DNA from: Streptomyces chromofuscus
GTDB lineage: Bacteria > Actinomycetota > Actinomycetes > Streptomycetales > Streptomycetaceae
Length of the DNA: 64,000 nucleotides
Reading direction: 5' to 3'
Assembly (NCBI RefSeq): GCF_015160875.1
Contig: NZ_CP063374.1
Location: 806,001 to 870,000, forward strand
The notes beneath the pieces were generated by a model. The model did not search any database and was not told the origin of the DNA. It saw nothing but the letters and a program-made list of their open reading frames with translations. Positions 50,235-64,000 of this stretch are shown one piece after another; the stretch's first letter is position 1, and every line of letters starts with the position of its first letter. A program made the translations under genes and the position numbers.

Positions 50235-53200
50235 GTGGGATCTGTGAAGTTCTGGTGGGGTGGGGTGCCTGTGCTGCGGAGTCGAAGATCGATAGCCGCG
50301 GTGTTGGGGGGTGTTGCTGCCTCGCTGGTGCTGACGGCATTGCCCGTGTTGCCGGCGCCGGCAACCTCGGCTAGTAGGGCGGCTGCTGCGGAAGCGGCAC
50401 CTGGTGAGGTGGATGAAGCCGCCGCTCTGGCCCAGGCGAAGGCTTCCGGTCAGCAGGTGGAGGTGACGACGGCGCGCAGCGAATTCACCACGACGCATGC
50501 CAACCCCGACGGCACGCTCACGCTCACGCAGTCCACCACTCCGCAGCGGGTGAGGCAGGACGACGGAACCTGGGGGGTGATCGATACCACGCTGGAGCGG
50601 CGTCCTGACGGGCGAGTTGCCCCCAAGGGCGCTGTGGTCGACGTGTCGTTCTCCGGCGGCGGCTCCGGCGCGGACATGCTCCGCCTGGGCAGGGACGGCC
50701 GTTCGGTCACCCTGGGCTGGACCGACACCCTGCCGCAGCCGGTCCTGGACGGTGCCACAGCCACCTATCCAGAGGTGTTCGACGGTGTGGACCTGCAGTT
50801 GACCGCCACGGCTGAGGGCTATCGCGAGGTCCTGGTCGTCAAGACGCCCGAGGCCGCGCACAACCCTGCGCTGGAGCACCTCGTCATCACCGCGGACGGT
50901 GATGGGCTGAGTCTGGTTCCGGGCGCGGGTGGTGGCCTGCGCGCGCTCGACGAGGATGGCAACGCCATCTTCCGCGGCCCGGCGGGGCTCATGTGGGACT
51001 CCGCGGGGGACAGTTCGTCGGGGCCCCAGACTCAGTTGCAGCCCGCCGCCGCTACCTCTGACGCTGCTGCACTGGACGACTCGGGCGACCCGGTGCAGCC
51101 CGGGGAAGGGGACGCGAGTGCGGTGCTGCCGGTGACGGTGGCGGAGAGTTCCATTGCTGTTCGCCCCGACCTCGAACTGCTGCGCGGCGCTGAGACGGTC
51201 TACCCGGTGTTCATCGACCCGCCGATGGGTCTGGGTGCGCAGGAGCGCACCAAGATTTCATCTGACGGCGACCGGTTCTGGATGTTCGACGGCGACAAGG
51301 GTGTCGGCAAGTGCGGCACGGCCGACGGCTACACCTGTGGTGGCGGCTACATCGACCGGATGTACTTCGAGTTCGCGCCGACTGCGCTGGCCGGCAAGCA
51401 CGTGCTGGACGCCACATTCCGTGCGCGGGAGACGTGGTCGTTCAACTGCACCCCCTACACCGTGGACCTGAAGCGCACCAACAACATCTCTGAGGCGACC
51501 GGCTGGCCGGGACCGGCGCAGCTGGACCACCTCGGCGACCGCGCTGTGTCGGCCGGCCGAGGCGACCTGTGCTCACCGGACCAGCCAGATGCCTGGATCG
51601 AGTTCAACGACAACACCACCGAGACGGACGAGAACCTCACCAGCACCGTCCGCTCCTTCGCCAACGGCTCCTTCAGCCGGCTGACGCTGATGCTGCGCGC
51701 CCACGACGAGACCGAGCCGCGCGCCTGGAAGCGGTTCGACGACAACGCCGAACTGCAGGTCATCTACGCCTACAAGCCCGGCGTCCCCACCAACGTCGGG
51801 ATCATCTCGGGCATTAACGGCACGACCGCCTACTGCAAGACATCCTCTACCGACCCGCTCATCGTCACCTTGGGCGTCCCGACCGTCCAGGCACGGCTCC
51901 AGACGCTAGTCGGCTCGACCTCGGGCGCTCTGCTGCGGGCCGAGTTCATCGTCGAACGCGGGGACGACGCACCCTGGCGCCGGGTCTGGTCCGGGAGCTC
52001 GCCCAGCACCGGCTGGCACGCGGACAACGACCTGGAGCGGATGGAAACCGCCAAACTCGTCGACGGCGGTCTGTACCGGCTCAAGGCGCGTACCCGGTCG
52101 CACTGGACCTTCAACACGGTCCCCGACGACCTGTGGTCCCCCTACAACAGCTCCTGGTGCTACTTCAAGCTCGACTCCGCGGCTCCAAAGGAGCCCACAA
52201 TCACGTCCCTCTCGCCCTACACCCAGTGCTCGGCGGATGTCTGTGAGGGCAAGGGCGGCCCGGGTGTGCCTGGCTCCTTCACCTTCGAGCCGAACACCGC
52301 CGACATCAAGGACGGCAAGACCGACGTCACCGCGTACGAGTGGAACCTGCTGTACACCAAGCCCAAGCAGGCGTCCTCCAACGGGGCTCTGAAGACGACG
52401 GTGAGCGATGTCGTCCCTCCGCTGGCCGGGACGACAGTGCTGTCAGTACGGGCCAAGGACGTCTACAACCGGTGGGGCCCGTACAAGGAGTTCACCTTCA
52501 AGGTGGCACCCGCGCAGGGCGTGGTGGGCCGGTGGCACCTCAACGGCGACGGAACCGACACTCCCGACACGGGTACCCCGCATACGGCGACCCCGGGCGG
52601 AACCAGAATCGAATGGCCGGACAAGGCACGCCGTGGTGAAGGTGACAAGTCGCTGGGCCTGAATGGGGGCACGACGGATCCCGCACAACAGACCAGCTAC
52701 GCGGCGACCGCTACCCCCGTGTTCAACACCCAGGAGTCTTTCACCGTCTCCACCTGGGTGCAGCTGAACGACGCCTCCACCAACCGGGTCGTGCTGTCCG
52801 CACCCGGTACGAACGGCAGCGCGTTCGCGCTGTACTACTCCAGCGCCTTGAAGAAGTGGGTGTTCAACCGCACCGACAAGGACGTGGCCAGCCCGGTCCA
52901 CATCCGCTCGGTCGCCGATACGGACAAGCCGCCGCTGAACGTATGGACCCACCTGGCGGGCGTGTTCAAGACCGAGGGTGCCGACAACCTCCCCGACACC
53001 GACCCGTCCAACGACACCATCCAGCTGTTCATCAACGGCCGCCCGCAGGGCCAGCCGGTCGTCCTGTCCCAGGCCGCCCCCACCTACACCCCATGGACCG
53101 CGACCGGCGGCCTGCAGTTCGGCCGCTTCAAGGCCGCCGGCACCTACAGCTCCTACCACGTCGGCCTGCTGGACGAGGTCGCCGCCTGGCAGCGAGCCTT

Positions 53201-53969
53201 GTCTGCGCCGGAACTCGCCCACGAGACGCGAGTGCTTGAGAACGAGGTGCCGGCCAACGAACTGGTCGCTCACTGGAACGCCACCACCTCTCAGGGCACC
53301 CAAATCAGCAGTCGCACGCCGTACCCCGTGCCGGCCATGACAGTGTCCGGAACAACGATCGGCGAGGAAGACGACGCGCTGCTCGTAGACGGCGCGGCCC
53401 ATGCCGCAGCGACGGGACCGGTGGTCGACGAGACAGGTTCCTTCACCGTCTCCGCCGACGTCCGCCTGAACACCGACCAGCTCGCGAGCAAGCCGCTCGG
53501 ATACCGAGCCCAGGTGGCCGGGCAGACCATGGGCGGCGAATCCTCGTGGGCGTTGTCGGTGGTCAAGCGCGAGAATGACTTGGGGCAGCACATCTACCTG
53601 TGGGAGTTTGCCCGCACCGCGGTGGGCCCGGACGGAACGGTCACCCAGAGCACCGTCGTACCCGCCACCGATGAAGCGCAGGTCGGCACCAGGGTGACCC
53701 TCACCGGAGTCTTCAACGCACAGGCCGATCCTGACACCGGCGACGGCGACCTGGACTTGTATGTCGGGGAGGAGGCTCAGCCACGGGAAGTGGGCACTTT
53801 CACCACCCCGCAGCAGGGCAGCGGTGAGCTGAGCTGGGGCCGAGGAACTGCGGCCGGCAGCACCGCCCACTACTTCACCGGCGCTCTGGAGCAGCTGCGC
53901 GTGTGGACCGGCGCCATGACGATCGATCAGATCGGATCGCAGGTCCTGGCGCCCGGCATCACCGGCTAA
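50235..53969 (+). CDS. Secreted LamG-domain protein associated with an Rhs locus
   Basis: A 1244-residue exported protein. Signal peptide RSRRSIAAVLGGVAASLVLTALPVLPAPATSAS; the start may be GTG 50235, 50244 or 50265. An N-terminal beta-rich domain (about 70-290: GVIDTTLERRPDGRVAPKGA, TYPEVFDGVDLQLTATAEGY) is followed by a DNRLR-like sandwich (MYFEFAPTALAGKHVLDATFRARETW). Ig-like segments come next, then two LamG/concanavalin-like jellyroll domains (about 790-1000 with ESFTVSTWVQLNDAS; about 1055-1240 with GSFTVSADVRLNTDQ and LYVGEEAQP). Probably binds cell-surface glycans. It precedes the Rhs gene by 160 bp and is likely its partner. Confidence 0.82.
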   Translation: MGSVKFWWGGVPVLRSRRSIAAVLGGVAASLVLTALPVLPAPATSASRAAAAEAAPGEVDEAAALAQAKASGQQVEVTTARSEFTTTHANPDGTLTLTQSTTPQRVRQDDGTWGVIDTTLERRPDGRVAPKGAVVDVSFSGGGSGADMLRLGRDGRSVTLGWTDTLPQPVLDGATATYPEVFDGVDLQLTATAEGYREVLVVKTPEAAHNPALEHLVITADGDGLSLVPGAGGGLRALDEDGNAIFRGPAGLMWDSAGDSSSGPQTQLQPAAATSDAAALDDSGDPVQPGEGDASAVLPVTVAESSIAVRPDLELLRGAETVYPVFIDPPMGLGAQERTKISSDGDRFWMFDGDKGVGKCGTADGYTCGGGYIDRMYFEFAPTALAGKHVLDATFRARETWSFNCTPYTVDLKRTNNISEATGWPGPAQLDHLGDRAVSAGRGDLCSPDQPDAWIEFNDNTTETDENLTSTVRSFANGSFSRLTLMLRAHDETEPRAWKRFDDNAELQVIYAYKPGVPTNVGIISGINGTTAYCKTSSTDPLIVTLGVPTVQARLQTLVGSTSGALLRAEFIVERGDDAPWRRVWSGSSPSTGWHADNDLERMETAKLVDGGLYRLKARTRSHWTFNTVPDDLWSPYNSSWCYFKLDSAAPKEPTITSLSPYTQCSADVCEGKGGPGVPGSFTFEPNTADIKDGKTDVTAYEWNLLYTKPKQASSNGALKTTVSDVVPPLAGTTVLSVRAKDVYNRWGPYKEFTFKVAPAQGVVGRWHLNGDGTDTPDTGTPHTATPGGTRIEWPDKARRGEGDKSLGLNGGTTDPAQQTSYAATATPVFNTQESFTVSTWVQLNDASTNRVVLSAPGTNGSAFALYYSSALKKWVFNRTDKDVASPVHIRSVADTDKPPLNVWTHLAGVFKTEGADNLPDTDPSNDTIQLFINGRPQGQPVVLSQAAPTYTPWTATGGLQFGRFKAAGTYSSYHVGLLDEVAAWQRALSAPELAHETRVLENEVPANELVAHWNATTSQGTQISSRTPYPVPAMTVSGTTIGEEDDALLVDGAAHAAATGPVVDETGSFTVSADVRLNTDQLASKPLGYRAQVAGQTMGGESSWALSVVKRENDLGQHIYLWEFARTAVGPDGTVTQSTVVPATDEAQVGTRVTLTGVFNAQADPDTGDGDLDLYVGEEAQPREVGTFTTPQQGSGELSWGRGTAAGSTAHYFTGALEQLRVWTGAMTIDQIGSQVLAPGITG

Positions 53970-54129
53970 CCGCCCTTTCCTCCGCTTGCTGGGCGGTCGG
54001 CAGGCACGACGCCCGAGACCGCCCGCCCAGCAGGCTCCCTGTTCCTCCGTGCGCTCCGCACGGCGCTTTCACGCCCTGTTGTCCATGGCCAGGCACGATG
54101 CTGCCTGGCCCTAGTGAGGAAGACATCAC

Positions 54130-57100
54130 GTGAAACACTTCGGCACCCCATGGCCCGGTCCAGGCCGCGGAGGCGGAAGCACAGGCCGCTGGAGCAGACG
54201 CATAGCCACCCTGACCGGGCTGGCGATGCTCCCGGGCCTGCTCACCCCCGTCGCCTTCGCCGCTACTCCCGATCCACTCGGGGCTCCCACGCTGGAGCCG
54301 CCTCGTTCAGCGAAGGTCCGCCCGTTCACTGCCAAGGTGAGCGAGAAGCCCTCGCAGGCGGACCGTAAGGCGGCCGAACGAGCCCGCCGGGACCAGCAGC
54401 ACCCGGTCACCTGGCCCACGGCAGGCACCGCCATCTTGCTCCTCGGCACTGGTGCGACGTCCAAGAAGGAAGCGGGCACCCTGCCCGTCACGGCCAGCAC
54501 ACCCGGCAAGGGCCGGTCGGCGAAGTCCCTCACCGTTGAGGTCTTGAGCCGCAAGGACGCGACCCGTCTCGGCGTCAAGGGCGTCGTGCTGAAGGTTTCC
54601 GCTCCCGCCGGTGGCAAGGCACGCCTGAGTGTCGGCTACTCCGCTTTCGCCTCCGCCTACGGCGGTGACTGGGCCGGGCGGCTGCAGTTGTTCCGCCTGC
54701 CCGACTGCGCCGACGGCACCCTGGACAAGGCTGGCTGCCGCACCCGCACCGAACTCGACTCCCAAAACCACCGCACCCAGCAGAACGTCGCCGCCACGCT
54801 GAGCCTGCCGGCCAGCGGCGCGCCGATGATGCTGGCGCTCGCCGCGGGTACCCAGTCGGGGGCCGGCGACTACAAGGCGACGCCGCTGTCCCCCTCTTCC
54901 ACCTGGGAAGCAGGCGGCGGCTCGGGCACCTTCACCTGGTCCTACCCTCTGAGGGTCCCGCCGGCCGCTGCCGGCCCTGAGCCGAACCTGGCCCTGTCTT
55001 ACGATTCGGGCAGCATCGACGGGCGCACCGCCAGCACCAACAACCAGGGCAGCCAGGTCGGCGAGGGTTTCGACCTGACCTCCTCCTACATCGAGCGCAA
55101 GTACGGCTCGTGCGACGACGACGGTCAGACGGACAAGTCCGACCTGTGCTGGAAGTACGACAACGCCTCCCTCGTCCTCAACGGCAAGGCCACCGAACTC
55201 GTCAAGGACGACACCAGCGGAAAGTGGCGGCTGCAGAACGACGACGCCTCCACTGTCATCCGCTCGTCCGGCGCAGACAACGGTGACGACAACGGCGAGC
55301 ATTGGGCGGTCACTACAGGAGACGGCACCAAGTACGTCTTCGGCCTGAACAAGCTCGACGGCGCCGGCGCGGACGACCGCACCAACTCCGTGTGGACCGT
55401 GCCGGTCTTCGGCGACGACGAAGGCGAACCCGGTTACGACGCCGACTCCACCTTCTCCGGCCGGGCCAAGACCCAGGCCTGGCGGTGGAACCTGGACTAC
55501 GTCGAAGATAGCCACGGCAACGCCAGCACCTACTGGTACACCGCGGAAACCAACCACTACGACACGCTCGGCGACGACACCATCGGCACCGAGTACGTAC
55601 GCGGCGGCTACCTGAGGGAGATCCGCTACGGTCAGCGCGCCGGCACCCTGTTCTCTGCCATCCCGGCCGCCTCGAACAAGGTCGTCTTCGGCCACGACGA
55701 GCGCTGCCTGGCTACCGGCACCGGCTGCGACGCACTGACCGAAACCACCCGGAACAACTGGCCCGACGTACCGTTCGACGCGGTGTGCAAGGCCGATGTC
55801 AAGTGCACCGGCAACACCGGGCCCACCTTCTTCACCCGCAAGCGCCTGACCACCGTCACCTCCTACGCCTGGAACGCGGCCGCCGCGACCCCTGCCTACG
55901 AGCCGGTGGATGCCTGGACGCTCAAGCACCTATACCTCGATCCCGGCGACACCGGTGACTCCAGCGACCAGTCGCTGTGGCTGGACGAGATCCGTCACAC
56001 CGGCAAGCGCGGCACCGACCTCTCCCTGAACCCGGTGCAGTTCGGGCACGAGATGCTGGCCAACCGCGTTGACGGCCCCGACAACATCCTGCCGCTGCAC
56101 AAGCCGCGCCTGAAGACCGTCACCTCGGAAACAGGCGCCAAGACGTCCGTCTCCTACCTGCCTGCCGACTGCGCCTACGGGCAGACGATGCCCAGGGTCG
56201 ATACCAACACCAAGCGCTGTTACCCGGTGTACTGGTCACCCAACGGCGAGCAGGAGCCCATCCTGGACTGGTTCCAGAAGTACCCGGTCAGCGCCGTATC
56301 CGTCAGCGACCCCACGGGCGGCGGCCTGGCCGTGGAGCACTCCTACCAGTACTCCGCAAGCGGCGGTGCCTGGCACTACAACGAGGACCCGCTTACCCCG
56401 GCCAAGGAACGCACCTGGTCCATCTGGCGCGGCTACGAGCGCGTCACCCACCTCACCGGCGTCTCCACCGCAACGCAGAGCAAGACCGTCACGGTGTTCA
56501 TGCGGGGCATGCACGGCGACCGCGTCCTCGGCCCCGACGGTAAAACGCCCGACCCGACCGCCCGCAAGACCGTCACGGTCACCGGCATCCGAGCGGCCGC
56601 GATCAACGACCTGAACCAGTACGCCGGATTCACCCGCGAAACCGCCACTTACAACGGCAGCAGCGAAGTCTCCGGAACCATCAACAACCCCTGGTCCAAG
56701 CTCACGGCCACCCAGCACAAGTCGTATGCGGACATCGAGTCCTACTACGTGCGCACCTCGGCCACCCACGCCCGAACCAAGATCACCAGCGGCATCACCC
56801 CGCTCGATCGCGTCCGCACCGTCAGAACGACCTACGACGACTACGGCATGCCCGCCACCGTCGACGACGAAGGCGACAGAGCCGTCACCGGCGACGAGAA
56901 GTGCACCCGCACCTGGTACGCACGCAATGATGCTGCAGGCATCAACTCGCTCGTCTCCCGCAGCCGTACCGTCGCCAAGCCTTGCGCGACCGCGGATACG
57001 AGCCTGGACCTGCCCGCGGACTCCAGCCGCCCCGGCGACGTCATCTCCGACACCGCCACCGTCTACGACAACCCCACCGCCACCACCTGGCCGGCAACCC

Positions 57101-60100
57101 AAACGCCCACCAAGGGCGAGGCCACCTGGAGCGGGCGCGCCAAGGCCTACGACAGCAGCGACGCACCCCTGTGGCAGAAGATCGCCACCACCACCTACGA
57201 CACCCTTGGCCGCACCTCGATCGTCAAGGACACCAACGACAACCTGGTCTCCAAGACCACCTACACCCCCGCGGCCGCAGGACCGCTGACCGCCACGGAC
57301 GTAGAGAACATCAAGCTGCACAAGACGACCACCCAGGTCGACTTCGCCACCGGCGCAGCCACGAAGGTCATCGACCCGAACAACATGGTCACCCAGTCCG
57401 AATATGACAGCCTCGGACGCCTGACCAAGGTCTGGCTGCCCAACCGCTCCAAGGCCCTTGGCGCAACCCCCAACTACGTCTACGCCTACAACATCACCAA
57501 CACCGACATGTCCTGGGTGTCCACCGGCACCCTCAACAACAACGCATCCGGCTACAACACCAGCTACGCCTTCTACGACGCCCAGCTCAGGCTCCGCCAG
57601 ACCCAGTCGCCCACACCTGCAGCTGAAGGCGGCCGCATCATCACCGTGACCCGGTACGACACGCGGGGAATGGCCTACAGCCAGCACGGCGACATCTACG
57701 ACAGCACATCGCCGCCCACCTCAACCCCGGTCGAAGTCTCCGGCGGACAGGCCCCGATCCAGACGGACACCACTTTCGACGGCGCCGGCCGGCCCACCGA
57801 AACAGTGAACAAGACGCACGGCATCACCCGCTGGACCACCACCACCTACACCGGCGACACGGTCTCTACCAGTGCCCCCAACGGCGGGCAGGCCACCGCG
57901 GTAGTCACCAACGCCCTCGGCCAGACGACCGAGCGCCGCGAATACGCAGGCTCGCAGCCGACCGGCACCGACTACACCACCACCCGCTACACCTACCACC
58001 CGGCCGGCCAGCAGGACACCATCACCGGGCCCGACCAGACCGAGTGGACTTACACCTACGACCTGTTCGGCCGCCAGATCGAATCCACCGACCCGGACAA
58101 GGGCAAGACCACCACCGACTATAACGAACTCGACCAGACCGCTAGCACCACCGCCAACGACGACAGCACCAAGAAACTGCTGTACGGCTACGACGAGCTC
58201 GGCCGCCAGACAGGAATGTGGCAGACCGACAAAACGGACGCCAACAAGCTCGCCGCCTGGACCTTCGACACCGCAACCCGGGGTAAGGGCAAGCCCTACG
58301 AAAGCGTCCGCTACGACGGCGGCGCGACAACCACAGGCAAGGCCTACACCAAGCGCATCACCACCTACGACAACCTCGGCAACGCCACCGCCAGCCAACT
58401 CGACCTGCCCGAAGGCGACGCGTTCCGTGATGCCGGCGTACCCTCAACGCTGTCCCTGAGCGCCACTTACCGGCCCGACGGCACAGTCGCCCAGACAGGA
58501 TCCCCCGCTGTCGGCGGCCTCCCGTCCGAAATCGTCTCTTACACCTACAACGCCACCGGACAGCAGCTCACCTCCACGGGAACCACCGGCTACCTGCACG
58601 GCGCCGCCTTCTCCCCACAAGGTGACCTGCGACAGCTCCAACTCGGCACCAGCTCGACCAAGAAGGCCTACCTCAACTGGGAATACGAGCCCGGCACCCG
58701 CCGCCTGACCCGCGCCTACGTCACTGACGACGTCCACAGCTACATGGCGCAGGAGCTCAAGTACACCCAGGACGACGCCGGCAACGTCACCTCCATCTTC
58801 GACGCCACCACCCAAGGCGGCACCACGAAGGCCGACTACCAGTGCTTCACCTACGACGGCCACCGCCGCCTCACCGAAGCCTGGACCCCCAAAACCGCGG
58901 ACTGCGCAACCTCCGGCCGCACGATATCCAACATCGACGGCGCAGCCCCCTACTGGACGACCTACGCCTACACCCAGGCCGGCCAGCGCCAGACCGAAAC
59001 GCAGCACACAACCGCAGGCGACCAAACCACCACCTACACCTACAACGACCCCACAGACAACAAACCCCACACCCTCGACAACACCACCGGCGCCCGAACC
59101 GCCACCTACAGCTACGACAACGCCGGCAACACCACCTCCCGCCCGGGCGCAACGGGCCAGCAAACGCTCGCCTGGAACACTGAGGGCAAACTCACCACGC
59201 TCACCGAAGGCGCCAAGGAGACCGGCTACCTCTACGACGCGGACGGCGAACTACTCATCCGCCGCGCCAAGGGCGACGGCGACGCCATCCTCTACCTCGG
59301 AGGCGGCAACGAAGTACGCCTCACCACCAAGGGCACCACAAAGACACTCAGCGGCACCCGCTACTACACCGCAAACGGCCAGACCATCGCCGTCCGCACA
59401 GCGACCAGCGGAGTCGCGGGCACGAAACTGAGCTTCCTCGCCAGCGACCATCACGGAACGTCCAGCATCGCCCTGGAAGCAGGCACCTACGCGGTCACCA
59501 AGCGATACACGTCGCCATTCGGCAGCACGCGAGGAACCAAGGCGACCAGTTGGCCGGACGACAAGGCCTTCCTGGGTGCACCTGCCGACGAGTCGACCGG
59601 GCTCACCCACATAGGCGCCCGCGAGTACGACCCGGTGGTCGGCCAGTTCATCAGCGTCGACCCACTTCTCGAACTCGACAAACACCAAACCCTCAACGGC
59701 TACAGCTACGCCGTCCAGAACCCCCTCACACACAGCGACCCCACCGGCATGGGCCTCGCCTGTAACGGCTACGGCGATAGCACGCCGTGCCCCACAAACC
59801 CAAGTGGAGGCAAAAGTGGCCAGCCCGACAGCATCAACAGCGGAGGCGGGGGGACGACCGGGGGCACGGCAACCGCCAGTGGGGCCGCTGCCGATTACCG
59901 ATGCGGTTTCCCGGGATGCTCAACTGTCGGATACACCGGGTACGGACCTAACGTCGACGAGTACGTCAACAACGGCACGCCTTACCATTCTCCCATTCCT
60001 GAGCCGCCGGGGTACTGGGAGATATTCGAGCAGTTCGTGCTGCCGGACATCGATGAATGGAAGGCGTGTGGAAGCAATCCCGGCTTCAACTCCCACTGCG

Positions 60101-60981
60101 GCTGGGCCGCAACCGACCTTCCCGCCCTCAAGGCACTGAAGCTCCTAAAGCTCCTGAAGCTAAAGAAGACTGACGACGTCCTTGAGGAGGCCGCCAAGTG
60201 CACGAAGTGCTTCCTAGCCGGAACCGACGTGCTCATGGCTGATGGCACCACCAAAGACATCGAAGACATCAAGGTCGGCGATACAGTCCAGGCAACAGAC
60301 CCGGAAACCGGCGAGACGGGCCCCCGTGAAGTCACCAAGCTGATCATCACCGATGATGACAAGCACTTCAACGAGCTCTCCATCGCCACCGAAGACGGCA
60401 TCGAGAAAGTCACGGCGACTTACGAACACCCGTTCTGGTCGCCCTCTGAAGGCGACTGGATCGAAGCCGGCGACCTCACCCCCGGTGCGACCCTCCTCAC
60501 CGATGACGGCAACACCGTCATCGTCACCGCGAACCGCCCCTACACACGACATGCCACTACGTACAACCTGACCGTTGACGACCTGCACACGTACTATGTG
60601 CTGGCAGGGGAGACGCCGGTCCTCGTTCACAACAGCAATGGGAACTGTGGCGTCACGGATCTCGCAGCCAAGATTGATGTTGAGAACCTTTCGATGACCA
60701 AGACCGTCGAAAACCACACCTGGGACATTGCTGGTACTCGGGATGTCGATGCCCCCAACTTCGGTAAGGCTGCACGCCCTTACATGAACGGCAACAATGG
60801 GCAGCTCCTTCGGGGAATCATGGAGGGATCCGCACCCAGGATGGATTCCCGTGGCGCTCCTGGGGTTGTCGAGTGGAGAACGCCCGGAGCGATGAACGGA
60901 AGCAACGGGATCTGGGAGCTCAACATCGACGCAAATTCCAACAGGATCGTTCACTTCCTCTTCAAGAGCACAAAAGGCTAG
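54130..60981 (+). CDS. Secreted Rhs/YD-repeat polymorphic toxin with HINT domain
   Basis: A 2283-residue exported protein. Signal peptide RRIATLTGLAMLPGLLTPVAFA; SpvB-like beta-propeller start (WSYPLRVPPAAAGPEPNLALSYDSGSIDGR, about 275-305) with several Cys; YD repeats through about 1000-1830 (YDxxGxxT...YDxLGR); Rhs core end AREYDPVVGQFISVDPLLEL, YSYAVQNPLTHSDPTG (about 1832-1870). From about 2027 a HINT autoprocessing domain: CFLAGTDVLMADGTTKDIEDI, TYEHPFW, TVDDLHTYYVLAGETPVLVHN with terminal Asn2168. The last 115 residues are a distinct, unassigned tail (YMNGNNGQLLRGIMEG, GVVEWRTPGAMNGSNGIWEL). Probably a contact toxin released by HINT cleavage. Confidence 0.9.
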   Translation: MKHFGTPWPGPGRGGGSTGRWSRRIATLTGLAMLPGLLTPVAFAATPDPLGAPTLEPPRSAKVRPFTAKVSEKPSQADRKAAERARRDQQHPVTWPTAGTAILLLGTGATSKKEAGTLPVTASTPGKGRSAKSLTVEVLSRKDATRLGVKGVVLKVSAPAGGKARLSVGYSAFASAYGGDWAGRLQLFRLPDCADGTLDKAGCRTRTELDSQNHRTQQNVAATLSLPASGAPMMLALAAGTQSGAGDYKATPLSPSSTWEAGGGSGTFTWSYPLRVPPAAAGPEPNLALSYDSGSIDGRTASTNNQGSQVGEGFDLTSSYIERKYGSCDDDGQTDKSDLCWKYDNASLVLNGKATELVKDDTSGKWRLQNDDASTVIRSSGADNGDDNGEHWAVTTGDGTKYVFGLNKLDGAGADDRTNSVWTVPVFGDDEGEPGYDADSTFSGRAKTQAWRWNLDYVEDSHGNASTYWYTAETNHYDTLGDDTIGTEYVRGGYLREIRYGQRAGTLFSAIPAASNKVVFGHDERCLATGTGCDALTETTRNNWPDVPFDAVCKADVKCTGNTGPTFFTRKRLTTVTSYAWNAAAATPAYEPVDAWTLKHLYLDPGDTGDSSDQSLWLDEIRHTGKRGTDLSLNPVQFGHEMLANRVDGPDNILPLHKPRLKTVTSETGAKTSVSYLPADCAYGQTMPRVDTNTKRCYPVYWSPNGEQEPILDWFQKYPVSAVSVSDPTGGGLAVEHSYQYSASGGAWHYNEDPLTPAKERTWSIWRGYERVTHLTGVSTATQSKTVTVFMRGMHGDRVLGPDGKTPDPTARKTVTVTGIRAAAINDLNQYAGFTRETATYNGSSEVSGTINNPWSKLTATQHKSYADIESYYVRTSATHARTKITSGITPLDRVRTVRTTYDDYGMPATVDDEGDRAVTGDEKCTRTWYARNDAAGINSLVSRSRTVAKPCATADTSLDLPADSSRPGDVISDTATVYDNPTATTWPATQTPTKGEATWSGRAKAYDSSDAPLWQKIATTTYDTLGRTSIVKDTNDNLVSKTTYTPAAAGPLTATDVENIKLHKTTTQVDFATGAATKVIDPNNMVTQSEYDSLGRLTKVWLPNRSKALGATPNYVYAYNITNTDMSWVSTGTLNNNASGYNTSYAFYDAQLRLRQTQSPTPAAEGGRIITVTRYDTRGMAYSQHGDIYDSTSPPTSTPVEVSGGQAPIQTDTTFDGAGRPTETVNKTHGITRWTTTTYTGDTVSTSAPNGGQATAVVTNALGQTTERREYAGSQPTGTDYTTTRYTYHPAGQQDTITGPDQTEWTYTYDLFGRQIESTDPDKGKTTTDYNELDQTASTTANDDSTKKLLYGYDELGRQTGMWQTDKTDANKLAAWTFDTATRGKGKPYESVRYDGGATTTGKAYTKRITTYDNLGNATASQLDLPEGDAFRDAGVPSTLSLSATYRPDGTVAQTGSPAVGGLPSEIVSYTYNATGQQLTSTGTTGYLHGAAFSPQGDLRQLQLGTSSTKKAYLNWEYEPGTRRLTRAYVTDDVHSYMAQELKYTQDDAGNVTSIFDATTQGGTTKADYQCFTYDGHRRLTEAWTPKTADCATSGRTISNIDGAAPYWTTYAYTQAGQRQTETQHTTAGDQTTTYTYNDPTDNKPHTLDNTTGARTATYSYDNAGNTTSRPGATGQQTLAWNTEGKLTTLTEGAKETGYLYDADGELLIRRAKGDGDAILYLGGGNEVRLTTKGTTKTLSGTRYYTANGQTIAVRTATSGVAGTKLSFLASDHHGTSSIALEAGTYAVTKRYTSPFGSTRGTKATSWPDDKAFLGAPADESTGLTHIGAREYDPVVGQFISVDPLLELDKHQTLNGYSYAVQNPLTHSDPTGMGLACNGYGDSTPCPTNPSGGKSGQPDSINSGGGGTTGGTATASGAAADYRCGFPGCSTVGYTGYGPNVDEYVNNGTPYHSPIPEPPGYWEIFEQFVLPDIDEWKACGSNPGFNSHCGWAATDLPALKALKLLKLLKLKKTDDVLEEAAKCTKCFLAGTDVLMADGTTKDIEDIKVGDTVQATDPETGETGPREVTKLIITDDDKHFNELSIATEDGIEKVTATYEHPFWSPSEGDWIEAGDLTPGATLLTDDGNTVIVTANRPYTRHATTYNLTVDDLHTYYVLAGETPVLVHNSNGNCGVTDLAAKIDVENLSMTKTVENHTWDIAGTRDVDAPNFGKAARPYMNGNNGQLLRGIMEGSAPRMDSRGAPGVVEWRTPGAMNGSNGIWELNIDANSNRIVHFLFKSTKG

Positions 60982-60987
60982 CCAGAA

Positions 60988-61470
60988 ATGAAATTCTCCA
61001 TCCAAGACGGATCTCCTCTTGAGGGTGTTCTCACCTATGACGAGTCCGAGTACGGATTCTCCTTCAGTGCGCAGAGCGGGGAGTCGTTGAGCGAGAGGCT
61101 CGGCTCGAAGGGGGTTGCAAGTGTGCTGATCGGCACGCTCCAACTTGAGGTCGATATTGAGTCTCGGGGAGTCCTGTTCGCCTGGGGATACTTCCCAAAC
61201 GTTCGGGGTGTGGTGGCCGAGTTGATTGCTCCACAGTTCAATCCCGGACGGGTATTCATCTCGTCGGACCACTCCTTCGAGCCTGGGGTTTCTTTCGAGG
61301 TCCCTGGAGACAGGTGGCGGGTTTCGTATGATTCTTCCTCCGGGTGGGTCGCCATTCGTCTGAACAATGCCGTCGGCGCTAAGTTTGTCCAAATCGCTAG
61401 CGGAACTGTATTGGGCGTCGACAACGGTGATCTGGTTTCGGTCTGGCTCAATCCTGTTTTTGCAGAGTGA
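60988..61470 (+). CDS. Probable cognate immunity protein
   Basis: A 160-residue, acidic soluble protein starting 6 nt after the toxin stop, the usual place of an immunity gene. Predicted mostly beta: VLTYDESEYGFSFSAQSGE, VLIGTLQLEVDIESRGVLFAWGYFPN, GWVAIRLNNAVGAKFVQIASGTVLGVDNGDLVSVWLNP. AT-richer than the surrounding genes, as is the toxin tail, suggesting the pair was acquired as a cassette. No family recognised. Overlap with a terminator hairpin 53 bp later closes the operon. Confidence 0.75.
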   Translation: MKFSIQDGSPLEGVLTYDESEYGFSFSAQSGESLSERLGSKGVASVLIGTLQLEVDIESRGVLFAWGYFPNVRGVVAELIAPQFNPGRVFISSDHSFEPGVSFEVPGDRWRVSYDSSSGWVAIRLNNAVGAKFVQIASGTVLGVDNGDLVSVWLNPVFAE

Positions 61471-61522
61471 CAGGCGATGAGGCGGACGGGTAAGTAGAAG
61501 ATCCGTTAGCAGCAGCAAAAAT

Positions 61523-61555
61523 GAAGCCCCGCAAGGTGCGTCCTGGCGGGGCTTC
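61523..61555. terminator. Terminator between the immunity and integrase genes
   Basis: GAAGCCCCGC (61523-61532) and GCGGGGCTTC (61546-61555) form a perfect 10-bp stem with a 13-nt loop, preceded by AAAAAT; acts for both convergent genes. Confidence 0.85.
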
Positions 61556-61564
61556 TGCGGTGCG

Positions 61565-61585
61565 TGACGGCAGTAGTTGACGGCA
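61565..61585. other. Probable integrase arm sites / attachment region
   Basis: TGACGGCA occurs at 61565-61572 and 61578-61585 (13-bp period) immediately after the integrase stop codon. Paired short direct repeats next to int are typical of arm-type sites beside attP/attL. No tRNA 3' end was found here, so the core site is undetermined. Confidence 0.4.
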
Positions 61586-61588
61586 ACG

Positions 61589-62896
61589 TCAGCGGACGGG
61601 GACGGCGGAGGGTGGCGGTTCATCGCCTTCGTCCCGGGCCGTATGGCTGCTCTCCGGGCTGCCGAGCGCGGTGCCGAGGGCGTTGATGGCGTCGCGCTGG
61701 AGGCGGAGTCGGACGTGGGCGTAGACGGTGGCGGTGACGCCGATGTGGGCGTGGCCGAGGAGTTCCTTGATCACGACGAGTTCGATGCCCTGTTCCAGGA
61801 GGAGGGTGGCGGTGGAGTGGCGGAGGTCGTGGAAGCGGATGCGGCGGAGGCCGGCCTTGCGGAGGAGCGTGAGGAAGGCGCGGGTGAGGTTGGTCGGGTC
61901 GATCGGTCGGCCCTGCGCAGTGGTGAACACGTGCCCGTCGTGCCGCCACGTGGTGCCCGCGGCCTCATGCTTGCGCTGCTGCTGTTCGTGGTGGAGCTTC
62001 AGCGACTGGACGCAGCGGGTGGGAAGGGCGATGCGGCGCTCGGAGGCCCGCGTCTTGGTGGGCAGCGTGGTGAGCCCGCCTGCGGCGGTTCGCTGAAGGG
62101 TGCGGCGGACGGCGGCGGTGCCCGCGTCGAGGTCGAGGTCTTCCCAGTGCAGGCCGAGGAGTTCGCCCTTGCGGAGTCCGGTGTGGAGGGCGAGTTCGAA
62201 CAGCGCGTGCAGCCGGTGGCCCTGGGCGGCGGTGAGAAACTGCCGGGCTTCGTCGGCGGTGAGGGGTTCGAAGCGTCGGGGGCGGGGGGTGCCGGTGCGG
62301 ACGTTACGGGCGACGTTGCGCGGGATCTCTTCCTCCCGTACGGCGTGCTCCAGGGCGGACTTGAGCACGGAGTGGATGTAGGTGAGCGTCAGCGGAGAGA
62401 GCAGCTTGTGGCAGCACCGGCCGGCGGCACAGCAGCGGGGCTCATTGCGCCGGGCGTCGAGGCCGCGCGTGCAGCACTGGCAGGTGGTGCGGAGCTGGTT
62501 GAACCAGGTGCGGACGTCCTTCGCGGAGAGCTTGGCGAGCTTCTTCTTGCCCAGGCCGGGGATGAGGTACCGGTTGACGCAGGCGGTGTAGCGGGTGTGG
62601 GTGTTCTTGCGCAGGTGGTGGGCGGCCACGTTCTCCAGCCAGTACGTCAGGTACGCGGCCACGCTGCCCTGCGCGGTGGGGACGCGGAGGCCGCGGTTGC
62701 TGGCGGCGATCTTCTCGGTGAGCTTGGCCAGGGCGTCTTTGCGGGTAGTGCCATAGACGCGGACGCGGCGGCGGGTGTTGCCCTGTGCGAGGACGTATCC
62801 GGCGGCTTCCCAGCGGCCGTCCTTGCGCTGGTAGACCGTTCCGTCGCCGTTGGCCCGTACGCGGCGGGAGGCGGGGGTGTCTCGGGGCGTGGTCAT
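61589..62896 (-). CDS. int: Tyrosine recombinase integrase of an integrative element
   Basis: A 435-residue phage-type integrase. N-terminal AP2-like arm domain (RVRANGDGTVYQRKDGRWEAAGYV), SAM-like core-binding domain with a Cys-rich insert (TCQCCTRGLDARRNEPRCCAAGRCC, about 139-163) that may bind zinc, and the catalytic domain: Arg242 (TGLRKGELLGL), His356-xx-Arg359 (HDLRHSTATLL), His in LLGHAHIGVT and Tyr392 in YAHVR. Overlaps xis by one base (TGATG). It directs site-specific integration, probably as in pSAM2-type actinobacterial elements. Confidence 0.95.
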   Translation of the reverse strand: MTTPRDTPASRRVRANGDGTVYQRKDGRWEAAGYVLAQGNTRRRVRVYGTTRKDALAKLTEKIAASNRGLRVPTAQGSVAAYLTYWLENVAAHHLRKNTHTRYTACVNRYLIPGLGKKKLAKLSAKDVRTWFNQLRTTCQCCTRGLDARRNEPRCCAAGRCCHKLLSPLTLTYIHSVLKSALEHAVREEEIPRNVARNVRTGTPRPRRFEPLTADEARQFLTAAQGHRLHALFELALHTGLRKGELLGLHWEDLDLDAGTAAVRRTLQRTAAGGLTTLPTKTRASERRIALPTRCVQSLKLHHEQQQRKHEAAGTTWRHDGHVFTTAQGRPIDPTNLTRAFLTLLRKAGLRRIRFHDLRHSTATLLLEQGIELVVIKELLGHAHIGVTATVYAHVRLRLQRDAINALGTALGSPESSHTARDEGDEPPPSAVPVR

Positions 62897-63123
62897 CAGG
62901 CGGCGGCTTCCTGTTCGAGGCGGGTGCGGATGAAGTCGGTGAGGGCATGGGTGGGGATGCGGCGGGCGCGGCCGAGGGTGATCGAGGCGAGTTGGCCGGA
63001 GCGGAGCAGGTCGTAGACGGCGGAGCGGCCGAGCTGGAGGCGGGCCATGACCTGGGGAACCGTCAGCAGCTCCTCCGGCGTACTCAGCGCCTGGTGGGGC
63101 GCGGCGGGCGCGTGCGTGGTCAT
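62896..63123 (-). CDS. xis: Excisionase / MerR-like DNA-binding protein
   Basis: A 75-residue helix-turn-helix protein of the excisionase (DNA-binding domain, excisionase family) type: LLTVPQVMARLQLGRSAVYDLLRSGQLASITLGRARRIPTHALTDFIRTRLE. The length and RIP wing match Xis of pSAM2-like elements. ATG at 63123 overlaps the rep stop (TGATG) and its stop overlaps the int start (TGATG), so rep-xis-int are translationally chained. Confidence 0.92.
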   Translation of the reverse strand: MTTHAPAAPHQALSTPEELLTVPQVMARLQLGRSAVYDLLRSGQLASITLGRARRIPTHALTDFIRTRLEQEAAA

Positions 63124-64000
63124 CAGCAGCCCCCTTCGAACGCGAACTGGCGTGCCAGTTCTCTGCGGTGCCAGACGGCAGCGGCCAGGAGGGCGGCGCC
63201 GGGGCTGTAGCCGGTGCCGAGGTAGGCCCAGTGGCCGACGACGAGGGTGGTGTCCGGGTCGGGCTCGGGCAGGCTGGCGTGGGCGTGGACCTGTTCGGTG
63301 CGCCAGGTGCGGCGGGCGTCGCGCAGCGCGCCGAGGGTGGCGGAGTAGCGGCGGGACTTGGTGGAGAAGTGGCCCCGGAAACCGAGCATGTGCGCCCACT
63401 TCCAGAGCTTGAGATCAGCGAACTCGGGCAGCCTGCCCAGCTCCCAGCAGGTGCGGATCATCTGCCGCACGTGCCGGGCGACGGCGAGCCGAGGCAGCGG
63501 CCGGGCCTGCCCGGTGCCGCCGCAGGCGGTGCAGGGGAGCGCGGCCCCGTGGGGCAGGAGGGTGGCGCCGCGTCCCTGGCAGGGGCGGCAGAACAGGGCG
63601 CGGTCGAGGGTGCCGGAGGCGTCGGCGGACTTGGTGGCGTACTTGGCCACGTAGGCGGCGACCGCTTGATCGGTGAGTTCGGTGTCGGTGCCGAAGGCGG
63701 CGATCTCGCGCACGTCGAGCTGTTCGCCCCAGGTGAGTTCGCGTTCCCCGATCGCATCCGACACGACGGCCACTCGGACACGAAGGGCGGCGGCCCGGAT
63801 GGCGTCAGCGAGCATGGCGACGGTGGCATACGGGGGCGGGGGCGTGGAGTTGCCGTCCGGGCCGTCGAGGCGGATCACGGCGTGGAAGTGGACCAGGCCG
63901 CGCTTCTGGTACTCGGCGACCTTGGCGAAGGACACGCGCAGGACCGTGCGGGCGGCCTTCTGGGTCATGCCGAGCCGGGCGGCGATCTCGCGGCGCAGGT
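63123..64000 (-). CDS. repSA: RepSA-type replication initiator (N-terminus beyond window)
   Basis: The frame is open to the window end: about 292 C-terminal residues. VHFHAVIRLDG carries the HUH-like metal motif of rolling-circle initiators, AAYVAKYATKSAD holds the likely catalytic Tyr, and CRPCQGRG with CTACGGTG forms a zinc-finger-like pair. GHFSTKSRRYSATLGALRDAR is typical of RepSA. It should initiate element replication. Terminal overlap with xis as described. Confidence 0.9.
   Translation of the reverse strand, partial: LRREIAARLGMTQKAARTVLRVSFAKVAEYQKRGLVHFHAVIRLDGPDGNSTPPPPYATVAMLADAIRAAALRVRVAVVSDAIGERELTWGEQLDVREIAAFGTDTELTDQAVAAYVAKYATKSADASGTLDRALFCRPCQGRGATLLPHGAALPCTACGGTGQARPLPRLAVARHVRQMIRTCWELGRLPEFADLKLWKWAHMLGFRGHFSTKSRRYSATLGALRDARRTWRTEQVHAHASLPEPDPDTTLVVGHWAYLGTGYSPGAALLAAAVWHRRELARQFAFEGGC

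Follow-up and report, generated by a model that had tools for sequence, protein, structure and literature searches.

Probable exchange of Rhs toxin tips by a pSAM2-type element integrating within Hint codons in Streptomyces chromofuscus

The window analyzed here is a 64,000-nucleotide stretch of the Streptomyces chromofuscus genome, a single 7.48-Mb contig (NZ_CP063374.1; C1), of which it covers positions 806001–870000. It holds an Rhs/YD polymorphic toxin gene that appears to be the integration target of a mobile element. We propose, at a probability of about 0.93, that this element is an actinomycete integrative and conjugative element (AICE) of the pSAM2 type, whose integrase targets codons of the Hint domain and which exchanges Rhs toxin tips by site-specific integration. 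At the level of sequence, the comparisons described below show that the element lies between two 14-bp cores and has the end of Hint, a toxin tip, and a candidate immunity gene on the stretch from core to integrase; that arm repeats usually stand at its right end, about 112 bp ahead of the core; that the Rhs stalk is fused in frame to the tip of the element where an element is present; and that the former tip and the gene next to it stand behind the right-hand core in pairs of occupied and empty sites. Coordinates refer to the window unless given as genome positions.

The Hint core and its occupied and empty sites

The Rhs gene (54130–60981, plus strand) encodes a protein of 2283 amino acids (aa) with an Rhs_assc_core domain (aa 1795–1874), a pretoxin HINT domain (PT-HINT, aa 2036–2169) with an intein C-terminal splicing region (aa 2144–2169), and a variable C-terminal tip, which together are the features that define an Rhs/YD polymorphic toxin with PT-HINT. 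The Hint coding sequence (60235–60636, plus strand; PF07591, 8.3e-22) contains the left attachment core (attL), CACACGTACTATGT, at 60586–60599 on the plus strand. This core corresponds to codons 2153–2157 (HTYYV), lies in the last coding block of Hint within the splicing region, and forms the left boundary of the element. The bases that follow (60600–60633, plus strand) are element-borne and encode the last Hint residues, LAGETPVLVHN; in the compared loci, these last ~11 residues travel with the tip and not with the stalk. The stalk of the gene is thus resident and its 3′ end element-borne. The toxin tip, or C-terminal domain (60634–60981, plus strand), also belongs to the element and matched no family in Pfam or NCBIfam. 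Directly after it stands a candidate immunity gene (60988–61470, plus strand; 160 aa) with no match in Pfam. The core sequence CAYACGTACTATGT occurs four times in the source genome, each time in one of two element loci, and a reversed-pattern control does not occur. The Rhs gene of the window uses TAC for 102 tyrosines and TAT for four, and all 19 Hint-side core copies listed use TAC-TAT, which indicates that the DNA is conserved here and not only the protein. A paralogue of the gene at genome 43–52 kb (L174) is 95% identical to window 51197–59852 over 8.7 kb, DNA upstream of the gene included; it diverges before Hint and ends without a Hint match.

Two plasmid-borne sites were compared in their occupied and empty states. 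At the first, Streptomyces goshikiensis NBC_01191 (NZ_CP108578) has 26,271 bp of extra DNA inside an Rhs gene that is uninterrupted in strains CGMCC 4.1796 (NZ_CP115937) and NBC_00909 (NZ_CP108769). The 8 kb of left flank up to the core are 99.4% identical to CGMCC 4.1796 and 99.7% to NBC_00909, and the right side, from the core on and with the original tip included, is 99.87% and 99.84% identical, respectively. The insert is a tandem of three segments (9,608, 6,370, and 10,293 bp) that together have four cores and three integrases. In CGMCC 4.1796, the Rhs gene has the gene for WP_271245322.1 as its neighbor; in NBC_01191, that gene is found past the final core. The same stalk is found with other tips in NBC_00283 (99.1% identity) and ADI95-16 (98.5%). 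When the 950 bp from the core on were compared among the five S. goshikiensis strains, CGMCC 4.1796 and NBC_00909 were identical, and all other pairs shared only the first 50–56 bp (and, in one pair, another 84 bp close to the far end); the five strains thus carry four tips. At the second site, strain NBC_00069 has 8,677 bp between two cores that are absent from NBC_00161, and beginning with the second core, a stretch of 3,855 bp matches the Rhs-fused sequence of NBC_00161 at 99.8% identity. Two flanking attachment copies and an empty site in relatives, a mark of AICEs, were therefore both found, the empty sites being those of family members. An automatic "triangle" approach to finding empty sites returned, for the most part, short alignments to the conserved Hint end and was left unused; plasmid pairs were taken instead.

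Further comparisons place the boundary of exchange at the same core. An element of 8,691 bp with a core at both ends is shared, without a single mismatch, by NBC_00069 and NBC_01006; the left flanks in the two strains are 86.4% identical over 11.6 kb, and the displaced tips on the right are unrelated. In one genome (G104), the 2 kb that end with the last base of the core are the same in two Rhs genes, whose sequences are unrelated from there on, and two elements in that genome are 93.8% alike over 7.7 kb and have different tips. G104 has three Rhs loci (L125, L126, and L060) with eight exact cores and several elements.

If tips are exchanged, one tip is predicted to occur in several settings. 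The 866-bp segment of the window with tip and immunity gene was found in four of 391 other genomes. In G069, it is 93% identical, accompanied by the candidate immunity frame and fused to a different Hint domain. In G234, the first 532 bases are 83% identical, and the segment is an orphan preceded by an element arm and by a core that deviates at one position. G129 and G397 hold parts of it, with no core in the 20 kb retrieved. Near-identical tips were also found fused to Rhs in one genome and orphaned in another, the homology beginning at the core with none leftward, as in the orphan of locus L056 and the fused tip of L154 (97.4% over 900 bp). The repertoire of tips is broad. A scan of 69 tips (that of the window and 68 of the 112 tip references) gave matches to 17 Pfam families of one to four members each, mostly toxin domains, including deaminases, TreTu, AHH/WHH nucleases, ADP-ribosyltransferase-like domains, several Ntox families, and Fic. 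The 59 small downstream genes scanned (that of the window and 58 of the 110 immunity candidates) matched twelve families, among them SUKH-1, -3, and -4 and TriTu immunity.

Distribution of the core, its integrase family, and the arm repeats

Twenty loci from other genomes were chosen by matches to the 3′ end of the integrase gene (int), with pairs and larger contigs preferred. Exact CAYACGTACTATGT lies in a Hint-bearing Rhs gene with int or an int fragment downstream in 17 of them, and 19 have at least one exact core. The core recurs at the far end of the element, often exactly, preceded there by a conserved arm of ~100 bp and not by Hint. A further 60 loci were picked by the core itself, which is present in exact form in 64 of 101 Streptomyces genomes (reversed control, 0 of 101). 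Among 59 exact cores in 41 genomes, 48 fall inside a Hint match whose strand and reading frame they share; of the 11 outside Hint, seven are of the arm type by rule, and the rest are those of G022 (C118 and C169) and G028 (C557 and C966). In 82 loci, which were selected by int or by the core and are not a neutral sample, 117 sites have at most one mismatch: 79 in Hint, 31 behind an element arm, and seven left unassigned by the rule, which by eye read as Hint-like or arm-like. Across the class, counting exact sequence matches alone, the core occurs in 33 of 394 genomes and nine of 137 genera.

The core goes with one family of integrases. In the 41 genomes, 21 of the 25 integrase matches at least 60% identical to the integrase of the window (Int) lie within 6 kb of an exact core, as do none of the 58 less similar matches; the 83 matches were counted in batches of 56 and 27, fragments being counted singly.

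The arms suggest how the attachment site of the circular element (attP) may be laid out. All six copies of the motif GACGGCAGTAG-N(1-2)-GACGGCAAC in the source genome lie at the two element loci, and the control is absent. The arm-type repeat GACGGCAGTAGTTGACGGCAAC adjoining int (61566–61587, plus strand) would be the P′ arm. With two mismatches allowed, 24 core-to-core segments with full-length int were surveyed, the identical element of NBC_00069 and NBC_01006 being counted twice. In 17 of the 24, the motif precedes the right core, starting 100–113 bp before it, and none of the 79 Hint-side cores has it on the left; some segments lack it on one or both sides. The distance from the core to the 3′ end of int is 750–1,786 bp (median, 975 bp), and in the window, 1,003 bp separate the int stop from the first base of the attL core. 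We infer, less firmly than the core itself, that the motifs are arm sites for Int on both sides and that the cargo lies between the core and the P′ arm. Strand exchange probably occurs between core positions 3 and 15, since position 3 may be either C or T on the stalk side and the bases after position 14 follow the tip.

Tips might instead be exchanged by RecA-type homologous recombination between Hint or Rhs segments, the AICE being a hitchhiking neighbor. Homologous recombination is the published model for enterobacterial Rhs, as given in extracts of that report (PMC2935791), and the mosaic flanks of NBC_00069/NBC_00161 and G104 fit it. In the compared pairs, however, an element arm without Hint homology stands to the left of the right-hand core, so that the shared sequence comprises only the 14-bp core and ~40 bp of the coding Hint end. 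Moreover, the junctions fall at the core in independent pairs, and the core is tied to a single integrase family (21/25 matches versus 0/58). We consider homologous recombination an improbable main agent of the exchange. In a separate observation, Hint domains, complete or partial, are repeated at the loci L062, L066, and L108, every one of them with a core, and homologous recombination could there add to site-specific exchange.

Several observations weigh against site-specific integration as we propose it. The left flanks at the second site are 91.5% alike, against 99.8% for the right part, and the two Rhs genes of G104 are only 83.6% alike over 5.9 kb; these unequal flanks mean that homologous exchange has acted too. 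At the first site, core position 3 differs (CAT/CAC). For the locus of the window, no empty strain was found when both flanks were searched in 199 genomes each, in a collection that holds one genome per species. Six fetched Rhs relatives and the 95% paralogue had no Hint match and are uninformative on the attachment site. The element in the window, which bears an IS481-type insertion, may be immobile. Only 49 of 96 Hint matches, partial ones included, carry an exact core; by a narrower count, it is found in 10 of the 14 loci (of 30) with a nearly complete plus-strand Hint match. Four of the 25 family integrase matches have no core within 6 kb, three of them starting at most 110 bp from a contig start. 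The control pattern occurs in one of the 394 genomes of the class. Finally, the arm motif stands beside the 3′ end of int in only 15 of the 24 segments, which makes this part of attP less certain.

Genes and ends of the element

Downstream of the immunity gene and convergent with it, three genes on the minus strand form the chain that an earlier note on this stretch had read as the int end of a pSAM2-like element. They are int (61589–62896; 435 aa; Pfam Phage_integrase PF00589, 3e-29), which encodes a tyrosine integrase; xis (62896–63123; 75 aa), which encodes an excisionase-like protein with matches to HTH_17 and TIGR01764 (the frame was scanned minus its first codon); and the replication initiator gene repSA (63123–64000, continuing to genome 870667). 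RepSA has 514 aa once completed from the genome beyond the window end and belongs to Pfam family PF20199, "Replication initiator protein, pSAM2" (2e-154); its score with NCBIfam rep_init_RepSA, 585 bits, is under the family cut-off of 700. Both TGATG overlaps named in the note are present, at 63125–63121 (repSA/xis) and 62898–62894 (xis/int), and these domain matches bear out the pSAM2-like assignment. The note had also pointed to a Cys-rich insert in the integrase. The stretch TCQCC...RCC..GRCC does begin at Int residue 138 (residues 138–162) and forms a possible zinc-binding loop. Among 21 integrases of at least 400 aa that were aligned, out of 25 family integrases extracted, it is kept in 18, and the remaining three seem to have a frameshift or to be read out of frame at this point; the HxxR and H/Y motifs are retained in most of the aligned relatives. 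The Cys motif is also found in a 43%-identical actinobacterial integrase of a small Streptomyces longwoodensis plasmid and hence is not special to this element.

Core copies at genome 866586 and 878984 bound the element, which, as delimited by them, is 12.4 kb long. Extension past 64 kb, as the note had advised, yielded the transfer gene, a GntR gene, a NUDIX gene, and the second core. The genes beyond repSA encode an FtsK-type transfer protein of 505 aa (genome 871517–873034; PF01580, 2.7e-8), GntR (genome 873322–874335), an IS481-type transposase (genome 874439–876322), a helix-turn-helix protein, and a NUDIX protein (genome 878355–878864). Int and Xis beside one attachment site, RepSA, and an FtsK/SpoIIIE-type transfer protein, by which AICEs are recognized, are thus all present. 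Behind the right-hand core, a short open frame that opens with the last Hint residues (genome 878996–879415) represents the displaced, detached tip; its matches in plasmids were of only 42–53 bases. It is followed by a fragment of the int 3′ end (genome 879850–880048) and, beyond that, by other genes. Elements of this type form another tandem, now partly decayed, at genome 6684941–6692057 (L011), in the order Hint end, full int, xis, rep, GntR, Hint end, tip, small gene, and half int. No Rhs stalk match was found beside it, and it is cut by a transposase gene, presumably IS3-like from its sequence.

The tRNA gene that often serves as the integration site of an AICE, although not obligatorily, is missing here. 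ARAGORN found no tRNA gene in the 64-kb window, in agreement with the note, and none at either element end; the single tRNA gene in genome 858–898 kb is a tRNA-Sec at 889 kb, some 10 kb past the right-hand end. The suggestion that the window shows the junction opposite a tRNA end finds no support in this, and its alternative, an unusual target site, is what the core inside the Rhs toxin gene represents. The tRNA-Sec (genome 889070–889163) lies beside a formate-dehydrogenase-like frame, named by eye, that is split in two (L010, genome 884665–887925), which suggests a selenocysteine enzyme.

The note had expected the attachment site downstream of int, at about 61.5 kb; the core identified here is 1 kb upstream of that position, in the Rhs gene. 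A tRNA-derived direct repeat across 61.48–61.59 kb, which the note had singled out as the finding that would tell against it, was looked for and not found. What does occur there is a direct repeat of 61515–61713 at genome 879850–880048 that holds the terminator and the int 3′ end. The terminator-like hairpin (61523–61555), between the convergent immunity gene and int, is conserved in four copies within the same genome. Were this repeat the attachment site, the element would be an ordinary AICE inserted past the Rhs operon, and the tip would be chromosomal. The repeat is indeed direct and flanks the element genes on both sides, and matches to the int 3′ end were found in 137 of 392 genomes. Its two copies are just 80% identical, however; in the occupied/empty pairs, the additional DNA extends from the Hint core and takes in both the tip and the immunity gene, and the element that NBC_00069 and NBC_01006 have in identical form starts with the core and not with int. 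This explanation is very improbable, and the repeat was dropped as a candidate attachment site, given that the Hint core explains both element ends; its second copy is read as the remnant of an older integrase gene.

Proposed mechanism and significance

Here, we propose a mechanism in which a circle arriving by conjugation (RepSA and the FtsK-type protein) would recombine at the core of a resident Rhs gene, with Int performing strand exchange within the core. The Rhs stalk would become joined in frame to the Hint end and tip of the element, and the immunity gene that comes along would guard the recipient against its newly made tip. The old tip and its immunity gene would be parked behind the right attachment site (attR), detached from the stalk, and Xis with Int could reverse the insertion by excision. 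Later elements would enter at the core and push the array outward, giving tandem arrays of silent tips, and old elements would decay, leaving int 3′ ends behind. More tentatively, and with the balance somewhat against it, the elements could be dedicated tip-exchange vehicles and the arrays a switchable magazine: Int and Xis acting between identical direct cores would change the stalk-joined tip in part of the population, and the immunity genes of stored tips would persist. A new tip that poisons kin without the element would then let the element enforce its own maintenance and spread.

The gene content matches that of pSAM2-type AICEs, with a tyrosine Int, Xis, RepSA (PF20199), an FtsK-type transfer protein, GntR, and NUDIX. 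Where a report is cited in the following comparisons, they refer to extracts of it. Tandem accretion of AICEs at one site is known (PMC9513070). Their sites are mostly tRNA genes, with the pSLS subfamily as the exception (PMC3218068), and surveyed sites comprised 36 tRNA genes, 14 protein-coding genes, and one intergenic site (PMC9513070). Unlike in usual AICEs, the site here is a toxin gene whose product the element alters. Integrative elements with attachment sites in protein-coding genes such as dusA and trmE can supply the 3′ end of the gene, restoring the same protein. A protein-coding site of this kind is also rlmN (PMC9513070). In contrast to the elements at dusA, trmE, and rlmN, the 3′ end supplied here encodes a different toxin domain and is accompanied by a candidate immunity gene.

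For Rhs proteins, Jackson et al. (2009) reported that new tips displace old ones, which are kept as silent downstream orphans, and ascribed the displacement to homologous recombination with a postulated circular intermediate (PMC2935791). In our proposal, the agent would instead be a site-specific integrase on a conjugative element, and the circle would be the element itself. Orphan cdiA-CT/cdiI arrays (Ruhe et al. 2016; PMC4927057) and the Rhs-associated integrases of bee gut bacteria (Steele et al. 2017; PMC5727410) resemble the present case in that integrase genes lie close to toxin/immunity modules that have been displaced. Site-specific recombination or integrases were suggested to play a part there, with no mechanism given (PMC4927057, PMC5727410), and the extracts of these reports give no attachment site, element boundaries, or empty sites. 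No report of integrase-driven Rhs tip exchange or of an attachment site in a Hint domain was found in the open-licence PMC literature, which mostly leaves out subscription papers and holds bioRxiv only as PMC copies, so that an earlier description is possible. What is unusual is the target and its consequence; the AICE gene content and the displacement of polymorphic toxins with orphan arrays are known.

Going by these extracts, a demonstrated agent for the replacement of Rhs and other polymorphic toxin tips and for the orphan arrays has been lacking so far. The present analysis offers a concrete conjugative-type element with a defined 14-bp target that is common in Streptomyces, and tip exchange thereby becomes testable with one integrase and one short site. 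A search for the core in genomes would allow past and stored toxin repertoires to be read. The arrangement suggests a selfish strategy, in which the element re-arms a weapon of its host with a toxin that only carriers of the element resist.

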